Origin: Saprospiraceae bacterium
Lineage (GTDB): Bacteria; Bacteroidota; Bacteroidia; Chitinophagales; Saprospiraceae
NCBI GenBank assembly: GCA_029252685.1
Contig: JAQXAY010000160.1
Location: 1 to 32,208, forward strand
Length of the DNA: 32,208 nt
Reading direction: 5' to 3'
The notes beneath the pieces are model-generated. The model saw only the letters and a list, made by a program, of their open reading frames with translations, was not told the DNA's origin and ran no database searches. Below, one piece after another: positions 11,218-23,290 of this stretch. The position numbers and the translations under genes are program-made. The number at the start of each line of letters is the position of its first letter. Positions within the stretch are counted from its first letter, which is position 1.

Positions 11218-11931
11218 ATGAAGCAGCATTTAGTAATTGAGGGAATGACTTGCGAAGCCTGCAAAGCAAAAATCAAGTACCTCTTTGAGCAACATAAAAC
11301 CGTTGAACTAGCGCATGTAGATCTAGCCTCTGGTCAGGTAACTCTTGATGTAGAGCAAATATTAAATGAGACTGTATTCGAAAGTATATTATTGGGCCAT
11401 GACAAATACAGTATTCTCCAAGAAGTAAAGGACTTAGAAGTAGAATCATTTTGGATCACCTACAAGCCCCTATTATTGGTGGCTATCTTTGTAGCATTGG
11501 TATCAGCAACAGCAGTCCTAAACTCAAGCACACCGAGCTTCATGCTTTGGATGCGCTATTTTATGGCAGGCTTTTTTATTAGCTTTTCCTTCTTTAAATT
11601 TTTGGACCTTAAGGGCTTTGCAAATTCATTTTGCATGTATGATCCACTTGCGATGCGCGTTAAAGCCTATGGGAAAGTCTATCCCTTTATTGAATTAACA
11701 CTCGGACTGCTCTTCCTGATTGCGTTCAATCCAATAGTTACAAATCTAGCTACAATTTTAATCTTAGGAGTCAGTACGATTGGTGTTATCCAAAGTGTTG
11801 TGGATAAACGAAAAATTCAATGTGCCTGCATTGGAACAGTATTCAATCTTCCAATGTCTAAGGTGACGATTATAGAAAATTCAATCATGATCGGAATGGC
11901 AATAACGATGATAATTGTGAAAAGTATATAA
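11218..11931 (+). CDS. Heavy-metal-associated domain fused to MauE/DoxX-like membrane protein
   Basis: A 237-aa protein. Residues 1-70 form an HMA (copper-chaperone) fold with the metal-binding GMTCEAC motif (Cys12, Cys15). The rest has four hydrophobic segments (about 84-102, 112-128, 155-170, 175-195) and a C-terminal helix at about 222-236, as in MauE/DoxX-like redox-associated membrane proteins. A conserved CxC (Cys202, Cys204) in QCACIGTVFNLPMSKVT precedes the last helix. The expected location is the inner membrane with the HMA domain in the cytosol. The role is probably in metal or thiol handling, but this is inference. It stands alone with no metal-pumping ATPase or CsoR-like regulator beside it, and is divergent from the E1 gene. 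Confidence 0.85.
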   Translation: MKQHLVIEGMTCEACKAKIKYLFEQHKTVELAHVDLASGQVTLDVEQILNETVFESILLGHDKYSILQEVKDLEVESFWITYKPLLLVAIFVALVSATAVLNSSTPSFMLWMRYFMAGFFISFSFFKFLDLKGFANSFCMYDPLAMRVKAYGKVYPFIELTLGLLFLIAFNPIVTNLATILILGVSTIGVIQSVVDKRKIQCACIGTVFNLPMSKVTIIENSIMIGMAITMIIVKSI

Positions 11932-11961
11932 AAAACGGAGGCTCGATGGCCTCCATTTTTT
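11931..11961. terminator. Bidirectional terminator between the HMA/MauE gene and the paa operon
   Basis: GGAGGC (11937-11942) pairs with GCCTCC (11949-11954) around a six-base loop, with A5 on the left and T5 on the right. It closes both the plus-strand HMA/MauE gene and the minus-strand paa operon. Confidence 0.85.
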
Positions 11962-12733
11962 ATTTCGTTTGAAATTGCTTGATAAAGTTTTTGGTAAACT
12001 CAGAAAGAACCAGCTTTCCAGAGATACCCGCTCGTTCAGCAAGTAAGTCATCCCAGTGTTCTGTGCCTTGCCAGATCACTTTTTTCAGGTCTGACATTGC
12101 CTCAGGATTATAGCTTAATAGCTTTTTTAAGTATCCTTCCAGGTAAGCATCCATTTCTTCTACAGAGTCGAAAAGTTCGGTAAATAAACCCTTCTCTTTT
12201 GCCCACTCAGCTGTCTGCCATGTTGAAGCATCAATAGCCATCTGGCTCATAGCAGAAAGACCTACTTTGCGCTCCACCGCTGGCCCTACAACAAATGGTC
12301 CAATGCCTATTGCAAGCTCAGATAATTTCACGGAAGCAAACTTAGTTGCTACACAGAAGTCTGTCGCAGAAGCAACACCTACTCCACCACCTACAGCTTT
12401 ACCTTGTACACGACCTATGATTAACTTCGGACATTTGCGCATCGCATTGATCACATTGGCAAAGCCCATGAAGAATTTCTTACCCTCTTCAAGATTTGAA
12501 ATAGCAATCAACTCATCAAAAGAGGCCCCTGCACAGAAAGTACGGTCACCAGCACTCTTCAACAAGATCAACTTTACTTCATCCTTTGTTCCCAGCTCCG
12601 TAATCGTATTAGCAAGTTTGGCTAATATCTGTCCTGGAAGGGAATTGTGAGATGGATGAAAAAATGTCACTGTTGCCAGCCCATCCTCAATCAGGCAATC
12701 TACTGCCCCTTGTTCTCTTTTATCTGTACTCAT
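11960..12733 (-). CDS. Crotonase-family enoyl-CoA hydratase/isomerase of the paa operon
   Basis: A 257-aa crotonase-fold protein and the last gene of the paa operon; its ATG is 1 bp after the paaZ stop. The oxyanion-hole segment is TFCAGASFDEL (about 65-75) and the second is GKAVGGGVGVASATDFC (111-127). The residue matching the second catalytic Glu of rat crotonase (Glu164) is present as Glu139 in LSELAIGIGP. The position of the first (Glu144) is Gly119. A single acid at this position is seen in some isomerases such as PaaG. In context it should act on 2,3-dehydroadipyl-CoA (PaaF role) or on the epoxide/oxepin isomerisation (PaaG role). I cannot decide which. Confidence 0.85.
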   Translation of the reverse strand: MSTDKREQGAVDCLIEDGLATVTFFHPSHNSLPGQILAKLANTITELGTKDEVKLILLKSAGDRTFCAGASFDELIAISNLEEGKKFFMGFANVINAMRKCPKLIIGRVQGKAVGGGVGVASATDFCVATKFASVKLSELAIGIGPFVVGPAVERKVGLSAMSQMAIDASTWQTAEWAKEKGLFTELFDSVEEMDAYLEGYLKKLLSYNPEAMSDLKKVIWQGTEHWDDLLAERAGISGKLVLSEFTKNFIKQFQTK

Positions 12734-12734
12734 C

Positions 12735-14780
12735 TTAATTCGATTGATCTATTTTTTTAACCATAGTAAGTATAGTTGCTAAGGCTACCGTTTCACCAGT
12801 CTCGTCATAAACATCAACTAAGAACTTTACGATACCTTTTGCAATATCCTCCTCACTTTTCTTTTCTTGGTCTATTTTTTCTTTTACGGTAAAACGAACA
12901 CCAATTGTCATACCTGGATAAACAGGCTTAGTAAATCGAGCCTCATCAATTCCGTAGTTCAATAATACTGGTCCTTTCTTAGGATCTACAAAAAGACCTG
13001 CTGCCTTGGATAGAATGAAGTATCCGTGTGCAACACGCTGCTCAAAAATTGTCCCCTCCAAAGAGGTAGCATCCATGTGTGCGTAAAAATTATCTCCACT
13101 AACATTTGCGAAGTTTACGATATCTGATTCGGATACCGTATGCTTATGCGTAAATACTGTCTCGCCAATTTCCAACTCTTCAAAATGCTTTCGGAATACG
13201 TGCACATCTTTTTCTATATGCTCCGATCCATATTGGTAAACGCCAGAAACTGCAGTCAACATAGTTGGATGACCCTGAATAGCCGTACGTTGCAGATAGT
13301 GTTTCACACCACGCATACCACCCATTTCTTCACCACCTCCTGCACGACCAGGACCACCATGCGATAGTAAAGGCATTGGGGAACCATGACCTGTACTTTC
13401 AGCAGCACAAGCTTCATTGAGTATTAGAATACGTCCGTGATAAGGAGCTGCGGCAGCAACATACTCATTTGCTACTGCTTTATCATTAGTTACAATCGAG
13501 CTTACCAAAGATCCTTTTCCGAGACTTGCAATATGTGTTGCTTCCTCAAGGTTCTTGTATGGCATGATTGTAGATACTGGGCCAAAGGCCTCCACCTCAT
13601 GCGAACTCATATTCTCAAGTGGATTTGTATTTAGGAAGAGTGTAGGTGCAATAAATGCGCCCTTTTCTCTATCTGCTCCAACAACGTCAAAATTATCTTT
13701 TGCATAAATCACCTCATTATCTTGAGCCAACTTAGCGATCTGTTCTCTACAACGGTCTACCTGTAGCTTGGAAGCTAAAGTACCCATACGAACACCTTCG
13801 ACAGTGGGATCACCAATAGTTGTTTTATCTAATCGTGCACCAAGTGCTTTTTGCACCTCTTCTACTAAGTTTTCAGGCACCAATATCCTACGAATAGCAG
13901 TACATTTTTGACCTGTCTTCACAGTCATCTCTCTGTGTACTTCTTTTACGAAGAGATTAAATTCAGCAGTACCTGGAACAGCATCTGGTCCAAGAACAGC
14001 TGCGTTTAAAGAATCTGCCTCCATATTGAAAAGTACAGACTCGTTCAGAATTACTGGATGATTCTTAAGTTTTCTTCCTGTATGTGCAGAACCAGTGAAG
14101 GTAACTACATCCTGATGCGTCACATGATCTATAATACCAACACCAGAACCATTGACTAACTGAAGTGCTCCTTCTGGCAGAATACCTGAAGCGATCATAT
14201 CTTCAAAGAAAGCCTTTGTCAAAAACGAAGTTACTTCTGATGGTTTTACGATTGCTGGCATACCTGCTAAAAGGTTCACAGCGATCTTTTCCAACATACC
14301 CCAGATTGGGAAGTTGAAAGCATTGATATGTATAGCGACCCCTCTCTTAGGTACCATGATATGCTGTGCCTTGAAAGTTCCTTCTTTTGACAGATTTACC
14401 GTCTCACCATCTACAAAAAATGGTGCATTATTGAATTTCCTTCTAAGGGAAGCATAGGCAAAAAGAGTCCCAATACCTCCATCAATATCGATCCATGAGT
14501 CTACCTTGGTAGCCCCCGTCATGGATGAAATCGGATAATATTTTTTTCTAAGGCCATGCATATGCAAAGCCAATTTTTTCAACATCAATCCACGTTCTTG
14601 AAAGGTCATTTTACGCAGTGCAGCTCCGCCGCTATTAACTGCAAAAGTGCGCATAGCTGCATAATCCAGTCCTTCAGAACCGCAGGTTCCTATTTGTTCA
14701 CCGGTTACAGCATTGAACTGAGCAATTCCAGCTCCATCATGCGCCAACCATTGTCCCTGAATATAATTTGGTAAATTCAT
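12735..14780 (-). CDS. paaZ: PaaZ: oxepin-CoA hydrolase / 3-oxo-5,6-dehydrosuberyl-CoA semialdehyde dehydrogenase
   Basis: A bifunctional enzyme of aerobic phenylacetyl-CoA degradation. Its hydratase domain opens oxepin-CoA to a reactive aldehyde, and its NADP-linked aldehyde dehydrogenase oxidises that aldehyde to 3-oxo-5,6-dehydrosuberyl-CoA. The ALDH domain covers residues 1 to about 520 with Glu254 (FNMEAD) and the nucleophile Cys293 (TGQKCTAIRR). The MaoC-type hot-dog domain follows at about 535-681 with Asp563 and His568 in SGDNFYAHMD. All four residues match the known E. coli active-site residues, and the 681-aa length is the same. Both activities should therefore be intact. The gene starts 10 bp after the paaY stop. 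Confidence 0.96.
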   Translation of the reverse strand: MNLPNYIQGQWLAHDGAGIAQFNAVTGEQIGTCGSEGLDYAAMRTFAVNSGGAALRKMTFQERGLMLKKLALHMHGLRKKYYPISSMTGATKVDSWIDIDGGIGTLFAYASLRRKFNNAPFFVDGETVNLSKEGTFKAQHIMVPKRGVAIHINAFNFPIWGMLEKIAVNLLAGMPAIVKPSEVTSFLTKAFFEDMIASGILPEGALQLVNGSGVGIIDHVTHQDVVTFTGSAHTGRKLKNHPVILNESVLFNMEADSLNAAVLGPDAVPGTAEFNLFVKEVHREMTVKTGQKCTAIRRILVPENLVEEVQKALGARLDKTTIGDPTVEGVRMGTLASKLQVDRCREQIAKLAQDNEVIYAKDNFDVVGADREKGAFIAPTLFLNTNPLENMSSHEVEAFGPVSTIMPYKNLEEATHIASLGKGSLVSSIVTNDKAVANEYVAAAAPYHGRILILNEACAAESTGHGSPMPLLSHGGPGRAGGGEEMGGMRGVKHYLQRTAIQGHPTMLTAVSGVYQYGSEHIEKDVHVFRKHFEELEIGETVFTHKHTVSESDIVNFANVSGDNFYAHMDATSLEGTIFEQRVAHGYFILSKAAGLFVDPKKGPVLLNYGIDEARFTKPVYPGMTIGVRFTVKEKIDQEKKSEEDIAKGIVKFLVDVYDETGETVALATILTMVKKIDQSN

Positions 14781-14790
14781 TAACTGATGT

Positions 14791-15390
14791 TTATTTAGAT
14801 TTTTTGATCTTCTCCCAGGTTTTAAACAATTCTTCCTGTTTCGGACGATCCTTTGGAATTTCGCTCAAAGGTTCCACCGCTTTTAGTGTGTTGTGACATT
14901 CCGAGGGGAGTTGCTGATACAATTTTGTACCCATCGTTTTCCATTCGATCATCTCGTCACTCACTTCTTTTATAATCCTAGCTGGATTGCCAACCACAAG
15001 ACTTCTTGCAGGGATCTCCATCTTTGCTTTTACGAATGCTAAGGCACCAACGATACATTCATCACCAATCACAGCATCATCCATAATAACGGTGTTCATG
15101 CCAATCATGACGTTCTTACCGATTTGTGCACCGTGTATGATTGCCCCGTGGCCTATGTGCGCTCCTTCCTGTAATCGTAGTGAAGTACCAGGAAACATGT
15201 GAATAGTACAGTTCTCCTGCACATTACAGCCATCCTCAATGATAATCTCACCCCAGTCTCCACGAATAGCTGCTCCTGGACCAATATACACATCCTTGCC
15301 TATGATCACATTACCTGTAACCGCAGCCTGAGGATGAACAAATGAAGATGGATGAACCACCGGTATAAAGCCATTGAATTCGTAAATCAT
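14791..15390 (-). CDS. paaY: PaaY: gamma-carbonic-anhydrase-like hexapeptide protein
   Basis: A left-handed beta-helix protein (199 aa from the ATG at 15390) with hexapeptide repeats such as GNVIIGKDVYIGPGAAIRGD. The zinc ligands expected in gamma-class enzymes are His64, His81 and His86. PaaY proteins are reported as thioesterases that help remove toxic CoA intermediates of the phenylacetate pathway. An upstream in-frame ATG at 15441 would overlap the thiolase by 49 bp and add 17 residues with no family match, so I take 15390, which begins MIYEFNGFIPVVHPSSF, 2 bp after the thiolase stop. It sits between thiolase and paaZ. Confidence 0.93.
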   Translation of the reverse strand: MIYEFNGFIPVVHPSSFVHPQAAVTGNVIIGKDVYIGPGAAIRGDWGEIIIEDGCNVQENCTIHMFPGTSLRLQEGAHIGHGAIIHGAQIGKNVMIGMNTVIMDDAVIGDECIVGALAFVKAKMEIPARSLVVGNPARIIKEVSDEMIEWKTMGTKLYQQLPSECHNTLKAVEPLSEIPKDRPKQEELFKTWEKIKKSK

Positions 15391-15392
15391 AA

Positions 15393-16601
15393 TTAAGCTT
15401 TTTCTATAATCGTCGCATAACCTTGGCCTACTCCAATACACATGGCAACCAATGCATAGCGCGCATTTCTTTTTTCGAGTTCTAGGGCAGCAGAATACAG
15501 GATTCTTGTTCCTGTTACCCCAAGAGGATGACCGATTGCGATAGATCCTCCGTTAGGATTCACACGTGGATCATTATCTTTAAGACCCATCTCACGTGTA
15601 CAAGCAAGTGCTTGTGCAGCAAAGGCTTCATTTAGTTCAATAACCTCCATGTCATCCAGTGTAAGTCCTGCACGCTCTAGTGCTTTCTCACTAGCCTTTA
15701 CTGGACCTATACCCATGATTCGAGGTTCTACACCCACTACTGCTGAAGATACGATTCTTGCTTTCGGTTTCAAACCATACTTTTCAACTGCTTCTCCGGA
15801 AGCAATCAGCATAGCAGCAGCTCCGTCATTTAGTCCAGATGCATTTCCTGCTGTTACAGATCCTCCTTCTTTCTTAAAAGCAGCTCGTAGTTTGCCCAAT
15901 ATCTCTAAGCTCGTATTCGGCTTAATAAATTCATCTTGGTCAAAAACAATAGGATCTTTCTTCCGCTGTGGAATACTAACTGGAATAATTTCCTCTGCCA
16001 GACGTCCAGACTTCTGAGCTTCTGTGGCCTTCATCTGCGACCAATATGCAAACTGATCTTGATCAGCTCTTGAAATATTATACATCTCAACAAGGTTCTC
16101 TGCAGTCACACCCATTCCATCTGTGCCGTACATAGATTGCATTTTCTTGTTTACAAAACGCCAGCCAAAGCTAGAATCATGCATCTGTGCATCACGACCA
16201 AAAGGTTTGGAAACTTTTGAAATAACCCAAGGACCTCTGGTCATATTCTCAACACCGCCAGAGATAAACAAATCACCTTCTCCAGCTTTGATTGCTCTGT
16301 AAGCATGAATAGCAGCAGACATACCTGAAGAACAAAGTCTATTGACCGTCTCACCTGGAACTTGATATGGAAGACCGGCTAACAACAAAGCCATACGAGC
16401 TACATTCCTGTTATCTTCTCCTGCTTGATTTGCACAACCAAGGATCACATCGTCAATTTTTTCTTTAGGAAGATCTGGATAGCGCTCCATCAAACCCTTG
16501 ATCACATGAGCTGCCAGATCATCCGGTCGTACCGTTGATAAAGTACCTGTGAAATTACCTATAGGTGTTCTTAGACCATCTATTATATATGCTTCTTTCA
16601 T
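15393..16601 (-). CDS. paaJ: 3-oxoadipyl-CoA/3-oxo-5,6-dehydrosuberyl-CoA thiolase
   Basis: A degradative thiolase, 402 aa. It cleaves 3-oxo-5,6-dehydrosuberyl-CoA and 3-oxoadipyl-CoA to release acetyl-CoA and, in the last step, succinyl-CoA. Numbered from the chosen start: nucleophile Cys90 in RLCSSG, His358 in IAIGHPLG and the acid/base Cys388 in AMCIGVGQG. The MYGTDGMGVTAENL segment is typical of the PaaJ/PcaF subfamily. I prefer the ATG at 16601 because it overlaps the paaI TGA as ATGA, a translational-coupling signature. An in-frame ATG at 16610 adds three residues. PcaF is the alternative name, but the operon supports the phenylacetate role. Confidence 0.93.
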   Translation of the reverse strand: MKEAYIIDGLRTPIGNFTGTLSTVRPDDLAAHVIKGLMERYPDLPKEKIDDVILGCANQAGEDNRNVARMALLLAGLPYQVPGETVNRLCSSGMSAAIHAYRAIKAGEGDLFISGGVENMTRGPWVISKVSKPFGRDAQMHDSSFGWRFVNKKMQSMYGTDGMGVTAENLVEMYNISRADQDQFAYWSQMKATEAQKSGRLAEEIIPVSIPQRKKDPIVFDQDEFIKPNTSLEILGKLRAAFKKEGGSVTAGNASGLNDGAAAMLIASGEAVEKYGLKPKARIVSSAVVGVEPRIMGIGPVKASEKALERAGLTLDDMEVIELNEAFAAQALACTREMGLKDNDPRVNPNGGSIAIGHPLGVTGTRILYSAALELEKRNARYALVAMCIGVGQGYATIIEKA

Positions 16602-17020
16602 ACGTCCCATTCTTTGGATGAGCGATAGACTGTTCCTTTAAAACTGCCGATCAACTCTTCTTTTTGATTAAAAATATCAATTTGATAAAACCCGACCTTA
16701 TGCGTTGAATGTAGTTGTCTTGCTTTTGCAGTAATGATATCACCACTGTAAACACTTTTGAGATTGGAGATTGAAGCTTCGATTGAAACAGCGTGTCTCC
16801 CAAGACTATTACAGGCAAAGGCCAGTGCAGAATCAGCAAAGCTAAAGATAATGCCACCATGCGCTAACTTAAAGCCATTGGTCATTTCATCACGGATAGT
16901 CATACGAAGACTACACGCACCCTCTTCTACATGAATACGCTCTATGCCCATCCATTGACTAAAGGCATCGTTCTCGTACATTGCATCGACTATCTTAGCT
17001 GCATCTTGCTTTTCTGCCAT
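16598..17020 (-). CDS. paaI: PaaI: hot-dog fold phenylacetate-pathway thioesterase
   Basis: A 140-aa hot-dog thioesterase. The conserved NGFKLAHGGIIFSFADSA segment includes Asn48, His54, Gly55-Gly56 and the catalytic Asp63 of the PaaI family. In E. coli PaaI hydrolyses ring-hydroxylated phenylacetyl-CoAs and spares CoA when the pathway stalls. It starts 6 bp after paaH stops and its TGA overlaps the thiolase ATG. Confidence 0.92.
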   Translation of the reverse strand: MAEKQDAAKIVDAMYENDAFSQWMGIERIHVEEGACSLRMTIRDEMTNGFKLAHGGIIFSFADSALAFACNSLGRHAVSIEASISNLKSVYSGDIITAKARQLHSTHKVGFYQIDIFNQKEELIGSFKGTVYRSSKEWDV

Positions 17021-17026
17021 TGTAAT

Positions 17027-18190
17027 TTATTTATTAAAAAACGTTTGACCATTTCTAGCCATCCTTCTCAATAAAGGACAACAGCGGTAACGTTCTTCTC
17101 TATATTCATCATAAAGGGCATCAAGCTTGTCTACACAATTTTGTAAACCAAGTTCATTGGCCCATGCTAAAAGTCCTTTTGGATAATTCACCCCTTTGGT
17201 CATAGCAAGATCGATATCAGATTCATTCGCTACTTGCATAAACAGGGTATCTGCTGCAAGATTGATAAGCATAACTACCACTCGATCAGCTATCTGTTTG
17301 CCGAGGTCCATATCTTTATTCGCTAGAGGCATTTCTGCTCCCTCACTGTAGTCGTAGTATCCTCTCCCTGCCTTTCGGCCATAGTAGCCCGAATCGGCAA
17401 GCCTCTTTTGTGTAAAGGATGGCATAAACCTACCATCATAAAAGAAAGATGCATAAACCGTTTCTGTAACTTTATAATTGATATCATTACCGATATAATC
17501 CATAAGTGTGAATGGTCCCATTCTGAAACCTGCGATTTCTGTTAATGCCCAATCAATAGTAGCAAAATCAGCTATTCCCTCGTCATACATTCGAAGAGCC
17601 TCGCTGTAGAAAGGTCGAGCGATTCGATTTACTATAAAACCAGGTGTATCTTTTGCCAGCACTGTAATCTTTGACCAACTATTGATAGTTTCCCTTGCTA
17701 AGATCAAGTTTGAATCTGAAGTTTGAAGCGCAGGGATTATCTCTACAAGTTTCATAAGAGGTGCGGGATTAAAAAAGTGAATCCCCAAAAATCGATTTGC
17801 TTTCTCTAAGGCAGACCCGATTGCTGAAATAGAGAGAGACGAGGTATTTGAAGCGATTAAACAATCTGAAGAAACAATTTCTTCCAACCTCCTAAATACT
17901 GTCTTTTTTATATCTAAATCTTCAATGATTGCCTCTATGACAAGTCCACAAGATGCAAAGGCATCCATAGAAAGTTCATAAGAAATTCTTTCTTGTATAT
18001 CTGCTGCAGTTTGTTCATCAAGTCGACCTTTTTCGATGAGTCGATTCATAATCTTTTGCAGTTTAGATTTGGCACTATTAAGCGCCTCTGGGTTATTATC
18101 GACTAAAACTACATTGTGGCCTGCTGTAGCTGCGACCTGTGCAATTCCTGAGCCCATAGATCCTGAGCCGAGTACACCTACTTTTATCAT
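17027..18190 (-). CDS. paaH: PaaH: 3-hydroxyadipyl-CoA dehydrogenase
   Basis: An NAD-dependent 3-hydroxyacyl-CoA dehydrogenase, first gene of the operon. The Rossmann motif GSGSMGSGIA is at residues 8-17. The conserved SNTSSLSIS and GIHFFNPAPLMKLVEII segments follow, the latter carrying the catalytic His. The helical C-terminal domain contains VNRIARPFYSEALRMYDEG, and a second C-terminal domain fragment takes the protein to 387 aa. This is shorter than E. coli PaaH (about 475 aa). It oxidises 3-hydroxyadipyl-CoA to 3-oxoadipyl-CoA. The substrate is given by operon context. A good Bacteroidota promoter lies 42-70 bp upstream. Confidence 0.92.
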   Translation of the reverse strand: MIKVGVLGSGSMGSGIAQVAATAGHNVVLVDNNPEALNSAKSKLQKIMNRLIEKGRLDEQTAADIQERISYELSMDAFASCGLVIEAIIEDLDIKKTVFRRLEEIVSSDCLIASNTSSLSISAIGSALEKANRFLGIHFFNPAPLMKLVEIIPALQTSDSNLILARETINSWSKITVLAKDTPGFIVNRIARPFYSEALRMYDEGIADFATIDWALTEIAGFRMGPFTLMDYIGNDINYKVTETVYASFFYDGRFMPSFTQKRLADSGYYGRKAGRGYYDYSEGAEMPLANKDMDLGKQIADRVVVMLINLAADTLFMQVANESDIDLAMTKGVNYPKGLLAWANELGLQNCVDKLDALYDEYREERYRCCPLLRRMARNGQTFFNK

Positions 18191-20595: not shown

Positions 20596-21321
20596 TTATT
20601 TATCCTGCTTCGCGAAAACCCGTTTTAGCAGATCTGTAGTCCTTGATGCAGTATTCTCACGAATATCAAGTTCCTTTAAACGTACCATTTCGAATAGACC
20701 TTCTAGTGCTTCAGAAGTCACATGGTCATCAAGATCTGGATTTGCTTTTTCGATAAAAGGAATTTTATTATACTTATCAACAGCAGAGGACCAATAAGTT
20801 CTTGCATTAAACTTGTCCAAAGACTCAACAATTACTGGGTTGAACTCTGCATATAGTTTTTGGGAAGTTGCCTTCTTAAGGTATTTGGTTGCTGCATCCT
20901 TGTCGCCCATCAAAATATCCCAGGCGTCGGCAAATGACATTTGAAGGATAGCCTCTTTGAATATTGGGGCAGCCTTCTTCGCAGCATCCTCCGCCCCTCT
21001 ATTTACTTTCTCAAGAATATTAGCTTCTAAACCGTTAAATCCAGGAACGTTGCGAAGTTTGTCAGCTACCTTTTGAGCTTCTTCAGGCAAAAGGATTTTG
21101 TAAGCACTCTTATAATATCCATCAGTAAGACTTAACTTTCTTGCTCCCTCTGTAACACCTACTTCAAGTGCTTGCTTAAGGCCATCCGCAACATTTTTAG
21201 TTGTTAGTTCATTGGTGGTTGTAGTAGCAAGAACAGAGTCCATTGCTTGCTGCAATGCAGCTGGATCACATGATGCAAAAGTTATTACGCAAAGGCAACC
21301 TAAAAAGAATCGTTTTATCAT
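20596..21321 (-). CDS. DUF4197-family lipoprotein
   Basis: A 241-aa predicted lipoprotein. The hydrophobic signal ends in the lipobox TFASC, with lipidation at Cys18. The body is helical and matches the DUF4197 family: LKQALEVGVTEGARKLS, DGYYKSAYKILLP, ADAWDILMGDKDAAT and ARTYWSSAVDKYNKIP are its recognisable segments. The function of this family is not known. It faces the periplasm, attached to the inner or outer membrane. The gene is isolated between the endonuclease and folB, with a clear terminator after it. Confidence 0.88.
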   Translation of the reverse strand: MIKRFFLGCLCVITFASCDPAALQQAMDSVLATTTTNELTTKNVADGLKQALEVGVTEGARKLSLTDGYYKSAYKILLPEEAQKVADKLRNVPGFNGLEANILEKVNRGAEDAAKKAAPIFKEAILQMSFADAWDILMGDKDAATKYLKKATSQKLYAEFNPVIVESLDKFNARTYWSSAVDKYNKIPFIEKANPDLDDHVTSEALEGLFEMVRLKELDIRENTASRTTDLLKRVFAKQDK

Positions 21322-21424: not shown

Positions 21425-21943
21425 TTATCCAGCATAAAATCGGATACAATCAGAGCATAGGCAACTGTTATTAAAATTCAATTTTAGATGCTCAAGCCGC
21501 CCCTGATCCATCACTCCAGCATCCATGCACCAACAGGTACGATCAGAATAACAGAGCATTGGCTTACTGCAACGACCACATTTCTTTTTATAATCTGCCT
21601 TGGTCTGTATCACCGCCTTAGCGACCTGACCACCCAATGGCGGATTGTGCTTAGTAACCCGAATATCGATTTCCCGCAAATGTGAATAGTGATTTTTTAT
21701 ACCTAAACCAATACGTTCGACTACTGTCTCTATCAATTTGGCTGGTTTATTCATTGCTGTTTTTACGATGGCATAAACCACCTCATAATTCACAGTTGAC
21801 TGAATATCATCACTTACAGCAGCTTTTAAGATATCTACCTCCATGTATATATCGACTGTATATTTACCTCCGAGGATATTTTCTTCCTCATAAACACCAT
21901 GATGAGCATGAAAAACCATGCCTTCTAATGAAAGTTTTGCCAT
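21425..21943 (-). CDS. folB: Dihydroneopterin aldolase fused to a cysteine-rich CWC domain
   Basis: Residues 1-118 are FolB, which converts 7,8-dihydroneopterin to 6-hydroxymethyl-dihydropterin and glycolaldehyde in folate synthesis. HHGVYEEENILGG contains the catalytic Glu21, Tyr53 lies in TVNYEVVY, and Lys98 in VTKHNPPLGG is the catalytic lysine. A typical FolB ends here at about 120 aa. This protein goes on for another 52 residues with eight cysteines (122, 125, 131, 137, 139, 161, 163, 166) in a CGRC...CWC...CLCSDC pattern, as in the cysteine-rich CWC family, and probably binds metal. The join is continuous in one frame with no sign of frameshift. It stands at the head of a divergent pair with the acyl-CoA dehydrogenase gene. 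Confidence 0.9.
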   Translation of the reverse strand: MAKLSLEGMVFHAHHGVYEEENILGGKYTVDIYMEVDILKAAVSDDIQSTVNYEVVYAIVKTAMNKPAKLIETVVERIGLGIKNHYSHLREIDIRVTKHNPPLGGQVAKAVIQTKADYKKKCGRCSKPMLCYSDRTCWCMDAGVMDQGRLEHLKLNFNNSCLCSDCIRFYAG

Positions 21944-22030: not shown

Positions 22031-22081
22031 CATTTGAAAACCAAGCCTTAACTATTTTTTGAAAATCACTTTGTGAATACA

Positions 22082-23290
22082 ATGAATAAGACAACAACAA
22101 CCAAATCAGCGGCGAAAGTAGATCGTTATCAAGCACACGATTACTACTTGATGGATGAACTATTGAGTGAGGACCATATATTGGCCAGAGACGCTGTAAG
22201 AGACTGGGTTAAGCAGGAAGTTAGCCCTATTATTGAAGAACACTATGAGAAAGGCACATGTCCAAAGCATCTTTTCAAAGGATTGGCTGAGATTGGCGCA
22301 TACGGGCCTTCTCTACCAGAAAAATATGGCTGTGGTGGAATGGATGAGATCGCTTACGGTGTGATCATGCAGGAGCTAGAGCGTTGTGATTCAGGTTTGC
22401 GTTCAATGGCATCCGTACAGGGTTCCCTAGTAATGTACCCGATCTACAAGTTTGGTAGTGAAGAGCAAAGAATGAAGTATCTACCGAAACTTGCCTCTGG
22501 CGATTTCATCGGTTGCTTCGGTCTTACAGAGCCTGATCACGGATCCAATCCAAGCGGTATGATTACCAATATTAAAGATGATGGTGATGCATATATACTA
22601 AATGGAGCAAAAATGTGGATTACCAATTCACCAGTAGCTGACATTGCAGTAGTTTGGGCAAAAGATGAGGAAGGTGTTATCAGAGGCGTTATCGTAGAAA
22701 AAGATATGCCTGGTTTCTCAGCACCTGAGATACATGGAAAACTTTCTTTAAGAGCATCTATAACTGGTGAACTTGTATTCGAGGACGTGCGCGTACCGAA
22801 GGAAAATGTTCTTCCAGGAGTAAAAGGTCTTAAGGGTCCTTTAAGCTGTCTTTCTAAAGCTCGTTATGGTATTGCTTGGGGTGCAATCGGTGCAGCACTT
22901 GATTGTTACGATTCTGCATTAAGATACTCTAAAGAAAGAGAACAGTTCGGAAGACCAATTGGAGGCTTTCAGTTAACTCAAAAGAAATTGGCTGAGATGA
23001 TCACTGAGATCACAAAGGCACAAATGCTTACTTGGAGACTTGGATCACTTGCTAATGAAGGTAGAGCTACACCAGCTATGATTTCGATGGCTAAGCGTAA
23101 CAATGTGCACATGGCTCTTGAGATTGCTAGAGAAGCAAGACAGATACATGGTGGTATGGGTATAACAAATGAATACCCGATCATGAGACATATGATGAAT
23201 CTTGAAACTGTATTGACATACGAAGGAACACACGATATCCACTTACTAATAACAGGTATGGACGTCACTGGACTGAATGCATTCAAATAA
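22082..23290 (+). CDS. Glutaryl-CoA dehydrogenase-like acyl-CoA dehydrogenase
   Basis: A 402-aa FAD acyl-CoA dehydrogenase. The catalytic base is Glu381 in TYEGTHDIH. The CDSGLRSMASVQGSLVM segment, with its substrate-carboxylate Arg, is characteristic of glutaryl-CoA dehydrogenase (glutaryl-CoA to crotonyl-CoA and CO2, in lysine, tryptophan and aromatic breakdown). FAD-binding segments are CFGLTEPDHGSNP and the later REQFGRPIGGFQ and RQIHGGMGI. I choose the ATG at 22082; a GTG at 22073 in the same frame would add three residues. It is monocistronic with a strong terminator. It is near but not part of the paa operon. Confidence 0.93.
   Translation: MNKTTTTKSAAKVDRYQAHDYYLMDELLSEDHILARDAVRDWVKQEVSPIIEEHYEKGTCPKHLFKGLAEIGAYGPSLPEKYGCGGMDEIAYGVIMQELERCDSGLRSMASVQGSLVMYPIYKFGSEEQRMKYLPKLASGDFIGCFGLTEPDHGSNPSGMITNIKDDGDAYILNGAKMWITNSPVADIAVVWAKDEEGVIRGVIVEKDMPGFSAPEIHGKLSLRASITGELVFEDVRVPKENVLPGVKGLKGPLSCLSKARYGIAWGAIGAALDCYDSALRYSKEREQFGRPIGGFQLTQKKLAEMITEITKAQMLTWRLGSLANEGRATPAMISMAKRNNVHMALEIAREARQIHGGMGITNEYPIMRHMMNLETVLTYEGTHDIHLLITGMDVTGLNAFK

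Follow-up and report, generated by a model that had tools for sequence, protein, structure and literature searches.

Fusions between enzymes of folate synthesis are known, and FolB-FolK and FolB-FolK-FolP proteins occur in S. pneumoniae (2cg8), fungi, and Bifidobacterium. The roles of the active-site residues of FolB, or dihydroneopterin aldolase (DHNA; PF02152, TIGR00525), are established. They are also described in the structure paper on E. coli DHNA (PMC4176595), according to which DHNA is a homo-octamer, catalysis proceeds without metal, and the E. coli protein is disordered in the crystal over its last seven residues. For the Cys_rich_CWC domain (PF14375), which occurs alone or with DUF5522 (PF17653), the Pfam description was found in a single open-access paper, and there only as a gene name, and no literature was found for DUF5522. 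No description of a fusion between FolB and a cysteine-rich domain was found in the literature searched; such a fusion may be listed in subscription papers or domain-architecture databases.

The window analyzed here, a 32,208-nucleotide stretch from a Saprospiraceae bacterium, carries a gene on the minus strand (21425..21943) in which FolB and Cys_rich_CWC are joined, a new architecture made of known parts. As in the FolB-FolK and FolB-FolK-FolP proteins, FolB has a C-terminal partner domain, but here the partner is a small cysteine-rich module and not a folate enzyme. FolB-FolK also occurs in the family of the window, at L144:1808-2587 (genus code g64; HPPK match, 1.4e-23); a long branch sets this protein well apart from the remaining FolBs of the family, and that of L170 (g21) groups with it. 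The tail has the cysteine order of known CWC proteins (C-x2-C ... C ... CxC ... CxC-x2-C), and separate CWC and CWC-DUF5522 genes are present in the family as well; what differs is that the domain is found here behind an enzyme. The Trp in the middle of the CWC motif is invariant in 34 fused proteins, whereas in separate CWC proteins it is often another residue.

A complete FolB and an eight-cysteine tail in one frame

The open reading frame starts with ATG, ends with a stop codon at 21425-21427, and encodes 172 amino acids without interruption. Matches to PF02152 and TIGR00525 and an alignment with Staphylococcus aureus DHNA (1dhn) place the FolB domain at residues 1 to 116 (21596..21943, minus strand). 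The Pfam match covers residues 5 to 111 (21611-21931, minus strand) with 98.9 bits (cutoff, 31.8; E value, 3.3e-28), and that to NCBIfam folB reaches 96.5 bits (cutoff, 72.15). Residues E22, Y54, E74, and K100 of the S. aureus enzyme align with E21, Y53, E72, and K98 of the fusion protein, all four of which are invariant columns across 34 fused relatives, so that the original prediction of a complete FolB with its catalytic Glu and Lys was borne out. Matches to solved DHNAs stop at the end of the FolB domain. A model generated with AlphaFold, examined for the T-fold core of the enzyme, was of low confidence (pLDDT, 54); its top Foldseek matches were DHNAs (E value, 2e-4), with low TM-scores.

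A single FolB was found in the search of the source genome, this being the fusion gene, and no second, tail-less copy was identified there. As the genome also has one FolK and two FolE genes, the fusion protein is probably the housekeeping dihydroneopterin aldolase of folate synthesis in this cell. From its family membership and intact active site, the FolB part would supply 6-hydroxymethyl-7,8-dihydropterin for folate as the usual metal-independent octamer. The two GTP cyclohydrolase I genes (G000:C106, which is L194, and G000:C187, which is L195) stand against one copy each of FolB and FolK.

The remainder of the protein contains the Cys_rich_CWC domain at residues 122 to 167 (21443..21580, minus strand; genome match, 21443-21580). 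As predicted, exactly eight cysteines follow FolB without a break: C122, C125, C131, C137, C139, C161, C163, and C166. The score against PF14375 was 21.5 bits within the whole protein and 25.4 bits for the tail alone (cutoff, 24), with fused relatives reaching up to approximately 41 bits. All eight cysteines, including the CxC motif in the middle, are present and invariant in the 34 fused relatives, and the identity of the protein as a FolB-CWC fusion was thus confirmed by the Pfam and NCBIfam matches within the one 172-residue frame. A search of PDB sequences with the tail returned no CWC relative, and in AlphaFold runs with one sequence and with three sequences the tail was of low confidence.

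Purifying selection acts on the tail at a strength comparable with that on the enzyme. In close pairs with unsaturated synonymous sites, dN/dS of the tail was approximately 0.01 to 0.17, similar to that of the FolB part, and within the genus of the window pN was 0.07 to 0.09 for the tail and 0.09 to 0.14 for FolB, making the tail at least as conserved. The suggestion that the tail is only a cotranslated neighbor is therefore unlikely.

Distribution of the fusion

Two further genomes from the genus of the window carry the same fusion, with identities of 86 and 81%, and the tail recurs in frame across dozens of genera of the window's family (Saprospiraceae/Lewinella-like Bacteroidota), indicating that the fusion is more than a chance event. 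Across 298 genomes of the family, CWC matches were found in 112 and FolB matches in 281. At least 56 CWC matches lay in frame behind FolB among the matches listed, with 11 more confirmed from fetched loci. From the fetched loci of the family, 101 tailed FolB proteins were aligned, 75 of which have all eight cysteines; the tail was absent from 44 fetched genomes. No tailed FolB was present among the matches listed for either of two outside samples, approximately 210 genomes representing other families of the order and approximately 375 taken from elsewhere in the phylum, and the scores of the tailed proteins were far above the lowest among those matches. In the samples from the order and phylum, matches ended near the end of FolB or continued through stop codons. 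Among plasmid records, a partial match from Nocardia (29%) spanned most of the query, ending short of the CWC domain; the others listed were FolB only.

The source genome, a draft, consists of 297 contigs, and an assembly or sequencing error could in principle have joined two genes. This explanation, including a join by frameshift, was ruled out by the in-frame fusion found in independent congeneric genomes and in roughly a hundred relatives, and its probability is negligible. The alternative against which the fusion had been set, of separate folB and CWC genes with a stop codon between them, was likewise excluded, as no CWC gene adjoins folB in the relatives examined.

Other arrangements of FolB were also encountered in the family. 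In two genomes of genus g23 (L016:1129-2013 and L069:2168-3061), a tandem duplication has produced FolB-FolB-CWC in one frame of approximately 295 amino acids; in the related L123 (g22), two separate folB genes are adjacent, and only one is tailed. FolBs of genus g7 (L124, L131, L146, and L151) instead carry a long acidic tail of up to approximately 150 residues that is rich in Gly, Asp, and Glu, and in L124 no Pfam match was found past FolB.

Gene neighborhood and separate CWC genes

Downstream of the fusion gene, and on the same strand, is a DUF4197 lipoprotein-like gene (20596..21321, minus strand; PF13852, 2.2e-65), while a divergent acyl-CoA dehydrogenase gene lies upstream (22073..23290, plus strand; PF00441/PF02770/PF02771). 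Of 133 folB loci, 76 have a DUF4197 homolog as the downstream gene and many have a divergent acyl-CoA dehydrogenase homolog upstream, with both tailed and tail-less folB genes represented in each case. Given this common neighborhood, tailed and tail-less folB genes appear to be positional orthologs, with the tail having been acquired, or else lost, in situ; the FolB tree, being unrooted and built from a short protein, does not tell gains from losses. Farther away in the window, 11218-11931 (plus strand) encodes a fusion of a heavy-metal-associated (HMA) domain with a MauE-like membrane domain, and 11960-18190 (minus strand) is a run of phenylacetate-degradation-like genes, within which an aldehyde dehydrogenase-MaoC fusion is encoded (12735-14780).

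Approximately 50 of the family's CWC matches have no FolB in front of them. The separate CWC proteins that were read are either short and consist of CWC only or, as is usual, are joined to DUF5522. In the stretches examined, including those from tail-less relatives, no CWC gene was found next to folB.

Cysteine losses point to two metal sites

Cysteines are missing from 26 of the 101 aligned tails. The patterns of loss were CC.C..CC (n = 9), C.CCCC.. (n = 7), CC.C.CCC (n = 4), CC....CC (n = 2), and ..CCCC.. (n = 1), with a further three tails each lacking C3, C5, or C6 alone. Every loss falls within either {C1,C2,C7,C8} or {C3,C4,C5,C6}, none of the 101 tails has lost cysteines from both sets, and the most extreme forms retain exactly one full set of four. 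As the losses are confined to one set or the other, the simplest reading suggested by the alignment is that of two independent Cys4 metal sites nested in the order A-A-B-B-B-B-A-A. In the fusion protein, proposed site A would comprise the outer four cysteines (C122, C125, C163, and C166; 21446..21580, minus strand) and proposed site B the inner four, which include the CWC motif (C131, C137, C139, and C161; 21461..21553, minus strand). A Cys4 site in the cytoplasm would most likely bind zinc, and this is probably the metal at both sites.

Site A is broken in eight genomes, and its loss as a unit was observed in relatives from g4, g34, g121, and g59 that keep the inner four cysteines. Site B is broken in 18 genomes, and its whole or partial loss was observed in relatives from g22, g63, g79, g80, and g99 that keep the outer four. 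The FolB tree requires a minimum of four changes for site A and seven for site B, though a protein this short leaves it uncertain how many losses were independent; even when only the well-supported branches of the tree are considered, the commonest site A loss pattern must have arisen twice. Intact and broken forms coexist within genera g34 and g63. With cysteines lost at random in each event, the chance that all losses would fit one 4+4 split was 6e-5 with six events and 0.0014 with five, whereas with four events it was 0.04 and two splits fitted equally well; this test was post hoc, and it corrects for selection of the best split while leaving uncertainty in the tree out of account.

Possible roles of the tail

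Several functions can be imagined for eight cysteines behind a folate enzyme. As DHNA is metal independent and the E. coli enzyme has a disordered C terminus, every subunit could bear a freely hanging tail while catalysis went on undisturbed. Each CWC module would most likely hold two metal ions, probably zinc, to judge from the coordinated loss of cysteines, and an octamer of such subunits would present eight metal-stabilized modules, an arrangement that would suit docking, which the original prediction had also suggested, or assembly. We consider it somewhat more probable than the alternatives taken together that the protein is a FolB octamer with two-metal CWC tails whose role is structural and accessory to catalysis, either docking to a putative partner or stabilizing an assembly, and is not that of an essential sensor. 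Any function of the tail would be dispensable or lineage specific, as some lineages are tail-less.

With two proposed sites per subunit and the known octameric assembly of DHNA, up to 16 metal ions could be buffered as a store of zinc or iron with no direct tie to folate chemistry. In structural Cys4 sites, however, zinc is generally bound too tightly for buffering, an enzyme of a vitamin pathway would presumably not be abundant enough for this purpose, and relatives with a single site persist, all of which makes a store very unlikely. The tail may alternatively be the remnant of an interaction, frozen by fusion, that once linked FolB to the function of a CWC protein and is now decaying in several lineages. 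Stepwise loss of cysteines in several genera would fit such a history, as would the greater frequency of a separate CWC gene in genomes with a broken site B (7 of 18, compared with 8 of 75 with eight cysteines; Fisher P = 0.008, which ignores the kinship of the genomes, so that true support is weaker). Most genera, including that of the window, nevertheless keep all eight cysteines under strong purifying selection on the tail, and decay is an improbable account of it.

The original prediction had also raised the sensing of redox or metal state. On such a reading, the cysteines would respond to zinc level or redox state, switch FolB activity, and so tune folate synthesis. That a metabolic enzyme of the cytoplasm carries eight conserved cysteines is in keeping with this, and the tail starts shortly after the part of FolB that lines its active site (ranges from PMC4176595). 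The idea was weakened by the metal-free chemistry of DHNA (PMC4176595) and by the relatives that keep the tail with one site broken or lack it altogether, and the locus is not linked to any gene related to metals or redox, its neighbors being the DUF4197 and acyl-CoA dehydrogenase genes. Sensing is thus improbable as the purpose of the tail, and the survival of lineages in which one site or the other, or the whole tail, is missing makes it unlikely that the tail is an obligatory sensor of redox or metal state. A related proposal, in which the nested sites {1,2,7,8} and {3,4,5,6} of a two-metal module tie FolB to zinc status in this family, through regulation or through docking to a zinc-dependent partner such as FolE, is quite unlikely.

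A structural role in docking or assembly is therefore the reading that we favor from these comparisons, for a domain that is almost unstudied. The natural relatives that retain one set of four cysteines are ready-made variants with which the metal sites of CWC, and their purpose, may be addressed, and the tail sits on an enzyme that lends itself to easy measurement of activity, octamer, and structure.
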